Translations under genes and position numbers: made by a program | Notes under the pieces: model-generated | Databases searched by the model: none | The model's input: only the letters and a program-made list of their open reading frames with translations | Told to the model about the DNA's origin: nothing | Source of the DNA: a virus | IMG/VR virus record: IMGVR_UViG_3300025141_000718 | Span: 1-24,464 of that record | Length of the DNA stretch: 24,464 bases | Strand: one strand, 5' to 3' | In this document: piece after piece, positions 21,936 to 22,882 of the stretch | Position numbering within the stretch: position 1 is the stretch's first letter | Layout of the letters: each line of letters starts with the position of its first letter

Positions 21936-22018
21936 CTGCCACCTAGGTGGCAGTAGTGTTCTGAATGAACACAGTTGGCCCCACGAGCTCCCGCCCGTGA
22001 GGCCTGCTCTGTTCACTA
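21936..22018 (-). promoter_or_regulatory. Structured intergenic leader element, copy A
   Basis: In minus-strand RNA order: the stop codon within AGUGAACA (22017-22010); a 9-bp hairpin GGCCUCACG/CGUGGGGCC containing a U-G wobble that would be a C-A mismatch on the other strand; GUGUUC-AUUCA-GAACAC (21972-21956); then the palindrome CTGCCACCTAGGTGGCAG (21936-21953), 22 nt before the ATG at 21914. AGUGAACA can alternatively pair with UGUUCAUU (21971-21964). Confidence 0.65.
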
Positions 22019-22282
22019 GACCTCGACCACAGTTCGGTTGTCGGCCAACGCCCACCCGTTCCGCTCAAGACGCTCAGTCTCGTCGGTTCGATTGGACGTT
22101 TCGACTCGGACCCGAACCGCCACAAGAGCGCCACTGTCACCCCTGATAGGGGTGGTCGTGACTGCCGGCGGGCTATAACTGGTCCGCTTGAAACCAAGCG
22201 CAGCCAGGCCGCCAGCCAAAGACGTGTTCGCGGGCATCATGTTCGCGTCCCGAAAACACTTCACAGTTCCTTTGTTCTTCAT
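22016..22282 (-). CDS. Hypothetical protein, 88 residues
   Basis: GGGAG is 8 nt before the ATG. The protein has a basic start (KNKGTVKCFRDANMMP), a Gly/Ala segment (SLAGGLAALGFKR), then a beta-hairpin (GALVAVRVRVETSNRTDETERLERNGWALADN). No Cys pairs. It stands alone between two structured intergenic elements, whose copies provide its leader and its stop codon. No family recognised. Confidence 0.55.
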   Translation of the reverse strand: MKNKGTVKCFRDANMMPANTSLAGGLAALGFKRTSYSPPAVTTTPIRGDSGALVAVRVRVETSNRTDETERLERNGWALADNRTVVEV

Positions 22283-22298
22283 CTCTCAACTCCCAAAT

Positions 22299-22420
22299 CA
22301 CTGCCACCTAGATGGCAGTGGTGTTTCCCTTCCAACCATTGGAAGGGGTGTTCTCAGTGAACACAGTGAGGCGCACAGACGGACTCAATCGCCTGTCTGT
22401 GCGCCCGGCTCTGCTCACTA
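22299..22420 (-). promoter_or_regulatory. Structured intergenic leader element, copy B
   Basis: In minus-strand order: stop within AGUGAGCA (22419-22412); hairpin GCGCACAGAC/GTCTGTGCGC (22404-22371); GUGUUC-ACUGA-GAACAC (22364-22348); CCCTTCCAA/TTGGAAGGG (22347-22327, only in this copy); then a 22-nt palindrome copy, CACUGCCAU-CUAG-GUGGCAGUG (22320-22299), with a U-G pair. Four hairpins fill the region. AGUGAGCA can instead pair with UGUUCACU (22363-22356). Confidence 0.7.
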
Positions 22421-22765
22421 AGCCTTGGCTTGATTCCAATCCTCAAGGGCGCTCTCAATGCGCGCCCACTCCTCGGCCGACTGGTCCCAAGCGGCCCGCC
22501 GGATGGGGGGCCGGAGGTCGCCGCAGTGGTCGACCCCCATGCGCTTTTCGTAAGACAACTCGTCGACCATGAGCAAGCGGTACTCGCCATCGCTGTTCGT
22601 TATCCAGCACTGGCCCTTTGGGCGACCCATCAAAGCGATTCGACGAAGGTCGTCCAGTCCAAGGTCCTTAACGATATCGTCGTCGCCACCAGCGGCGGCG
22701 TCGTCTGCGATTAAGGTTTGAAGGGCGGACTCGGCCTCAACTAAAGTAAAAAGGCGTTGTTCCAT
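22418..22765 (-). CDS. Hypothetical protein, 115 residues
   Basis: GGGAGAG precedes the ATG. Helical N-terminus (FTLVEAESALQTLIADDAAAGG), an acidic DDDIVKDLGLDDLRRIALMG, then a beta region (GQCWITNSDGEYRLLMVDEL) and a Trp-containing tail helix (WARIESALEDWNQAKA). No catalytic or zinc motif. Flanked on both sides by structured intergenic elements, it looks like one cassette of the array. Confidence 0.55.
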   Translation of the reverse strand: MEQRLFTLVEAESALQTLIADDAAAGGDDDIVKDLGLDDLRRIALMGRPKGQCWITNSDGEYRLLMVDELSYEKRMGVDHCGDLRPPIRRAAWDQSAEEWARIESALEDWNQAKA

Positions 22766-22802
22766 AATCTCTCCCGGTTGTGCCCCAGACGGGGCGGTTA
22801 AA

Positions 22803-22882
22803 CTGCCACGTAGGTGGCAGCGATGCTCTCAGTGAGCACAGTGAGTCACACGGGCTCCCCCGTGTGACCGGCTCTGATCACT
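22803..22882 (-). promoter_or_regulatory. Structured intergenic leader element, copy C
   Basis: In minus-strand order: stop within AGUGAUCA (22882-22875); hairpin GUCACACGGG-ggag-CCCGUGUGAC (22868-22845); UGCUC-ACUGA-GAGCA (22838-22824), where a U-A pair of the other copies is replaced by C-G; then palindrome CUGCCAC-CUAC-GUGGCAG (22820-22803). A further hairpin GCCCC/GGGGC (22795-22782) precedes the SD. Confidence 0.7.

Follow-up and report, generated by a model that had tools for sequence, protein, structure and literature searches.

A repeated intercistronic element with a conserved predicted RNA fold in an uncultivated virus

Results

Genes and elements at the locus

The window analyzed here, a fragment of 24,464 bases from an uncultivated virus (IMG/VR record IMGVR_UViG_3300025141_000718, positions 1 to 24,464), encodes a DnaB helicase, Sak4, a RuvC-like resolvase, and a DNA methyltransferase. 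Close relatives of the window were present among the IMG/VR contigs, and the phage collection held no close cultured relative. Based on the relatives of one protein, we infer that the virus is marine and that its host is an alphaproteobacterium. A preliminary description of this DNA had noted three minus-strand copies of a structured element after three consecutive genes; all three were present, with the arms that it quoted, and are named W1 to W3 below. The element was carried by one other record only, IMGVR_UViG_3300006753_000036 (here G001, contig L016), where two copies, X2 and X3, occupy the sites of W2 and W3, respectively, for a total of five copies in two genomes. The genes and elements are as follows.

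22878-23177, minus: gene A, 99 amino acids (aa), no family; its stop codon TGA lies within W1; missing from G001
22803-22882, minus: W1 with its palindrome, after gene A (fold and alignment, z-score -3.7)
22771-22796, minus: leader cgccccgtctggggcacaaccgggag, preceding gene B; a second copy (23185-23209) stands ahead of gene A
22418-22765, minus: gene B, 115 aa, no family; its stop codon TAG overlaps the start of W2; G001 homologue 66% identical
22301-22419, minus: W2 with its palindrome, after gene B (fold and alignment, z-score -7.3)
22016-22282, minus: gene C, 88 aa, no family; its stop codon TAG overlaps the start of W3; G001 homologue 63% identical
21936-22017, minus: W3 with its palindrome, after gene C (fold and alignment, z-score -6.7)
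21618-21917, minus: gene D, about 99 aa, next after W3; no counterpart in G001
L016:3643-3726 (G001): X2, counterpart of W2 at the same place
L016:3272-3353 (G001): X3, counterpart of W3 at the same place, 91.5% identical with the palindrome counted

Genes A, B, and C are mutually unrelated, and the repetition of the element is thus not a by-product of recent gene duplication. In protein searches, genes B and C matched G001 alone and gene A matched nothing; the gene B protein had no match in the phage collection. Gene D scored 28.5 bits against the Pfam FliS model (cut-off, 26.7), a match that is unexpected in a phage and possibly spurious.

Each element begins at or within the stop codon of the preceding gene on the minus strand, lies between that stop codon and the following SD in all five copies, and is entered by the reading frame in the identical phase throughout. 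The order on the minus strand is AGTGRnCAGAGC, a hairpin, CTGTGYTCAYTnAGARCAY, and then the palindrome CTGCCAYSTASGTGGCAG and the next SD. The arms of the first hairpin (GTCACACGGG in W1, GCGCACAGAC in W2, and GGCCTCACG in W3) had been described as unrelated in sequence. This was not the case: the arms fit a common alignment, GG-N-C-N-CAC-R-G-R, in which the differences are paired changes. Arms that can be aligned and that covary strengthen the case for a structured RNA.

Search for further copies

Eight viral scans and one genome scan yielded no further genuine copy beyond the five. A covariance-model search returned nothing beyond these five, their weak echoes on the antisense strand, and hits on palindromes standing alone. 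Looser DNA patterns on viral contigs and a two-part pattern on genome contigs gave chance matches only, from which the architecture of the element was absent, and the phage collection contained no DNA match to the element region or to one single element. Such a search for homologues had been suggested as a check on the initial observation; it supplied two extra copies that covary, although the collection still amounts to five copies on two contigs. Rfam 15 gave no family match in the window, and weak chance matches only within 21400-23700. We conclude that the element is real and, with no match in Rfam, is new as a sequence family, that it is known from two contigs, and that its kind has precedents.

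Long-stem fold

For the coding strand, the fold of each of the five copies is a single imperfect stem of 21 pairs, roughly 25 bp. The lower stem has 8 positions with at most one mismatch. It is followed by a GxG mismatch that is the same in every copy, then by two pairs and a 2x2 loop whose C-A mismatch is likewise constant; the upper stem comprises 11 to 13 pairs (five copies). The helices in the window, together with those of the second fold described below, are as follows.

22875-22882/22831-22838, minus: W1 lower stem
22859-22869/22844-22854, minus: W1 upper stem
22834-22839/22823-22828, minus: W1 hairpin two
22412-22419/22356-22363, minus: W2 lower stem
22396-22406/22369-22379, minus: W2 upper stem
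22359-22364/22348-22353, minus: W2 hairpin two
22327-22347, minus: W2 extra hairpin
22010-22017/21964-21971, minus: W3 lower stem
21994-22004/21977-21987, minus: W3 upper stem
21967-21972/21956-21961, minus: W3 hairpin two

Two successive hairpins had originally been taken as the main architecture. The lowest-energy fold is instead the single long stem, in which AGTGRnCA is paired with TGYTCAYT. For the element-only z-scores listed above, no more than 1 of 200 shuffles folded equally well. When distinct 66-nt windows on both strands were ranked with correction for G+C, the W stems came third, fourth, and sixth, with tandem palindromes in the first two ranks. The coding strand was more stable than its complement in every copy (5/5; for X3, -45.2 versus -27.0). 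At the three stems, the minus strand had no terminator-like site, and an intrinsic terminator was rejected because a U tract is lacking after them. Stop-codon read-through was considered as well, X2 and X3 being open after TAG, and was rejected given that W2 and W3 carry tandem TAG TGA.

Other strong hairpins crowd the element region. At 23535-23600, shortly after a 283-aa gene, a very strong G/C hairpin (with runs of nine G and nine C) opens a noncoding region of some 400 bases that contains several hairpins. Elsewhere, the minus strand at 15453-15518 was a structured outlier in the window scan (G+C, 0.42; z-score, -3.8).

Covariation and strand polarity

Standard pairs filled 98.1% of the 105 pair cells of the long stem in the five-copy alignment, and four pairs were altered on both sides. 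The covariation score was 0.390 versus 0.212 for shuffled alignments, with 0 of 500 shuffles as high, in an alignment of five related copies from two genomes in which W2/X2 and W3/X3 are orthologous pairs and kinship inflates shuffle tests. Sliding the partner by one column lowered the paired cells to 33 to 36%, and the structure collapsed at shifts of 1 to 3 columns. Column pair 16/49 is C-G, A-U, G-C, or U-A in different copies, which covers all four Watson-Crick types. When hairpins one and two were scored jointly, 100% of the cells were paired, with five double-change pairs and a score of 0.482 versus 0.240.

Departures from Watson-Crick pairing were G.U in 9 pair types and A.C in none, in addition to two true mismatches at column 6. 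The presence of G.U without A.C favors RNA, given that in a DNA dyad nothing would make G.T preferable on one particular strand. The earlier claim that U-G wobbles appear on the transcribed strand only therefore holds for the stems of the element; in the palindromes, the bias is weak and is not independent from copy to copy. W1 and X2 lack pairing at stem position 6, so constraint on the closed long stem is imperfect. Stem sequence varies more freely than stem shape. W3 and X3 are 90.6% identical without the palindrome, compared to 73.9% for gene C (65% at third positions), and W2 and X2 are 83% identical, hardly above gene B at 80.5%. Compensatory helix changes and a pairing bias on one strand, the general marks of a structured cis-acting RNA, are both present in the five copies. 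Collectively, the comparison shows a conserved, strand-specific predicted RNA fold at five intercistronic places.

Second fold

Hairpin two consists of 6 bp, and TGYTCAYT, which forms the 3' side of the lower stem, also contributes to its 5' arm and loop; because this segment is used by both, the two folds are mutually exclusive. Hairpin two is kept in 5/5 copies. The U-A to C-G change noted in it at the outset was confirmed, with GTGTTC/GAACAC in both W2 and W3, against (G)TGCTC/GAGCA(T) in W1. Likewise, the two exclusive pairings that had been pointed out for one segment are available to UGYUCACU in every copy (5/5). Column 59 agrees with its hairpin-two partner in all five copies and with column 6 in three of them. 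The long stem is favored over the two-hairpin fold by 3.5 to 8.6 kcal/mol. Blocking the 5' arm allows the two hairpins to form; once nucleotides 1-11 are kept unpaired, the pairs of hairpin two each have a probability of 0.81 to 1.0. The 5' arm of the element coincides with the stretch that would be covered by a ribosome at the stop codon, and a fold that depends on translation is possible in geometric terms.

Start-associated palindrome

The palindrome, an 18-bp dyad with 6-4-6 spacing, occurs 8 times in the window versus 0.08 expected. It is also found without the RNA element, ahead of other genes and mostly 5' of an SD.

22803-22820: W1 palindrome
22301-22318: W2 palindrome
21936-21953: W3 palindrome
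21488-21505: further palindrome, CTGCCACCTAGGTGGCAG; RNA element absent
13035-13052: other palindrome
23215-23232: other palindrome
23240-23257: other palindrome
23399-23416: other palindrome

The arms read YGCCAC-CTAG-GTGGCR in the window and G001. In the same sort of place, the relative G006 (contig L021) has TTACCA-N4-TGGTAA, and L008 also has YGCCCA-N4-TGGGCR. At the end of a small basic gene, the palindrome is TGCCACCTAGGTGGCA in the window versus TTACCAGTGGTGGTAG in G006. We rejected the palindrome as part of the RNA, given that it stands alone elsewhere and keeps a constant 6-4-6 geometry with lineage-specific arms, features that are better explained by a DNA operator. It is very probably a start-associated putative operator, separate from the RNA element, and its lineage-specific arms suggest putative operators with switched specificity. 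The preliminary view of the whole as a structured RNA family and not just DNA sites thus stands for the element, on its pairing (98.1% of cells), covariation, and G.U polarity, but not for the palindrome. An HTH protein at 5739-5987 was considered as the source of arm specificity and rejected because it is 94 to 95% identical in G006 and L008, which have other arms. Separately, G006, otherwise of the TTACCA type, holds one palindrome of the window type at L021:13110-13127 (compare L016:1512-1529); this palindrome lies at the end of a gene nearly identical to that of G001, which suggests that gene and palindrome moved together.

Discussion

Each copy of the element appears to separate two genes that belong to one phage operon, which runs leftward and is promoter-proximal. 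Our tentative proposal, which we hold to be somewhat short of probable, is that the element is a cis-acting mRNA processing or stability element between early genes that resembles the RNase III sites of T7 and is possibly gated by the terminating ribosome. Among the roles that we considered, processing or stability ranks as the most likely, above a switch, a put-like antiterminator, a plain exonuclease barrier, DNA half-sites, and a cassette recombination site. The element would act on the polycistronic early mRNA by controlling its processing or stability, with the long stem serving as a double-strand-specific cut site (RNase III type) or as a 3'-exonuclease barrier, and the level of each gene would be set separately by its own stem. 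More speculatively, a ribosome at the stop codon might cover the 5' arm (about nucleotides 1-12), melt the lower stem, and let hairpin two form, in which case the long stem would appear only while the gene is untranslated. No nuclease site could be read from the sequence.

In T7, cleavage at RNase III sites breaks the early transcript up into messages of one or two genes (PMC4858673). Like the element, the T7 R sites (e.g., R1.1) are long irregular hairpins with internal mismatches, occur several times per genome, and lie between consecutive early genes, in the interval separating a stop codon from the next start; each copy here has such a stem, irregular, intercistronic, and about two helical turns long. 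The element differs in that it begins within the stop codon and keeps the competing hairpin two, and the likeness is one of architecture, with cutting put forward as a proposal. A second precedent is sib of phage lambda, a single retroregulation element downstream of int that chooses by transcription read-through. It shares with the element a location in the 3' region of a gene, alternative folds, one of which is a long double-stranded stem, and, as proposed for the element, action on the upstream message. However, sib is single and its choice is made by read-through, whereas the element is present in three copies and any choice would be made by translation.

The gating component could also be the whole function, such that the terminating ribosome selects the fold and the two folds differ in their effect on the translation or transcription of the next gene. 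We consider this unlikely. All five copies retain both folds, column 59 pairs better in hairpin two than with the 5' arm (5/5 versus 3/5), and the 5' arm is as long as the cover of a ribosome on the stop codon, with an identical frame entry phase in all copies. Nevertheless, no output is visible, given that hairpin two has no U tract and the next SD lies outside both folds; the long stem is the more stable by the margin given above, and the conservation of hairpin two rests on just two varying pairs. Somewhat more doubtful still is a ribosome-gated switch repeated three times, in which the terminating ribosome melts the lower stem, hairpin two forms, and the message is spared or exposed, so that what becomes of each cistron would depend on its own translation. 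It is also rather improbable that the copies are ordinary stable 3' hairpins whose only role is to shield the upstream message from exonucleases, with neither cutting nor switching involved. Each copy does follow a stop codon, the stem is freer in sequence than in shape, and strong hairpins are plentiful nearby, but a plain barrier would need neither the constant mismatches, nor the constant CAGAGC/ACTGTG core, nor the conserved hairpin two.

A DNA-level reading, in which the inverted halves AGTGAnCAGAG/CTGTGYTCACT are ESAS-like half-sites for a protein and the hairpin is incidental, seems to us slightly less plausible than the barrier. The ends of the element are inverted near-repeats, the adjoining palindrome is very probably an operator, and the ESAS of cluster K are inverted repeats read as DNA sites (PMC3203893). 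Against this, the halves are separated by a spacer that forms a covarying stem of its own, with wobbles on one strand, and the departures support RNA pairing in the element and not in ESAS. Improbable, too, is an antitermination RNA of the HK022 put type, in which two adjacent stem-loops bind the elongating RNA polymerase. Put RNA is of comparable size (about 70 nt) and belongs to a phage early operon, and its two stem-loops recall the two hairpins of the second fold (PMC9378689); a terminator-like hairpin is also located inside gene A. Known put sites, however, lie downstream of early promoters, one per promoter and not behind every gene, so position and copy number differ, and the lowest-energy fold here is a single stem and not a pair of stem-loops. 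Rfam gave no match of any kind, and the likeness to put was judged on size, setting, and fold.

We regard as very improbable a DNA recombination site of the integron attC type that moves genes as cassettes, with the variable hairpin as a variable terminal structure. As in attC, there is one site per gene, with conserved inverted ends, a variable hairpin between them, and a constant mismatch. Moreover, gene A and W1 are present in the window and both absent from G001, and blocks of homology between the window and G001 end within a few bases of the palindromes, at 21931, 22824, and 23398. The core boxes of attC are RYYYAAC and GTTRRRY, however, and the five copies have AGTGRnC and GYTCAYT as 5' and 3' boxes; the wobble polarity favors a folded coding strand and not the bottom strand of attC, and no integrase was recognized among the scanned proteins. 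The loss of the gene would be explained by the duplicated leader (23185-23209/22771-22796).

If the processing or stability reading is true, these copies would represent a new family of repeated intercistronic RNA elements in phages, a kind best known from T7, in an operon whose several genes each bear their own copy of the same folded control element. This RNA layer would stand beside a DNA layer, the start-associated operator, with the two distinguishable by their mode of variation. The palindrome resembles the SAS/ESAS of cluster K mycobacteriophages. Those, too, are inverted repeats that recur just ahead of the translation starts in nonstructural genes, and their consensus varies from one related subgroup to another. 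The habit of ESAS, inverted repeats with a lineage-varying consensus, is the one seen in the window palindromes (PMC3203893), where we found a repeated dyad just upstream of starts whose consensus varies between relatives. In contrast, the sequences are unrelated, the palindrome is a true 6-4-6 dyad followed by ordinary SD sequences, and ESAS have no counterpart of the RNA element.

The leader cgcccc..tgggcacaaYcgggag precedes both gene A and gene B in the window. Gene A together with W1 was likely gained or lost via recombination between these repeated leaders, and the corresponding G001 site is around L016:4100-4125. Within the 5' part of gene A, the coding strand at 23072-23130 contains a terminator-like inverted repeat, ACTCCGCCC..GTAC/GTAC..GGGCGGAGT followed by TTTTA (z-score, -5.9). 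In G006, L021:14450-14649 had no Rfam family match and contains a tRNA-Ala (CGC) with a 105-nt intron-like insertion that was detected only by an intron search.
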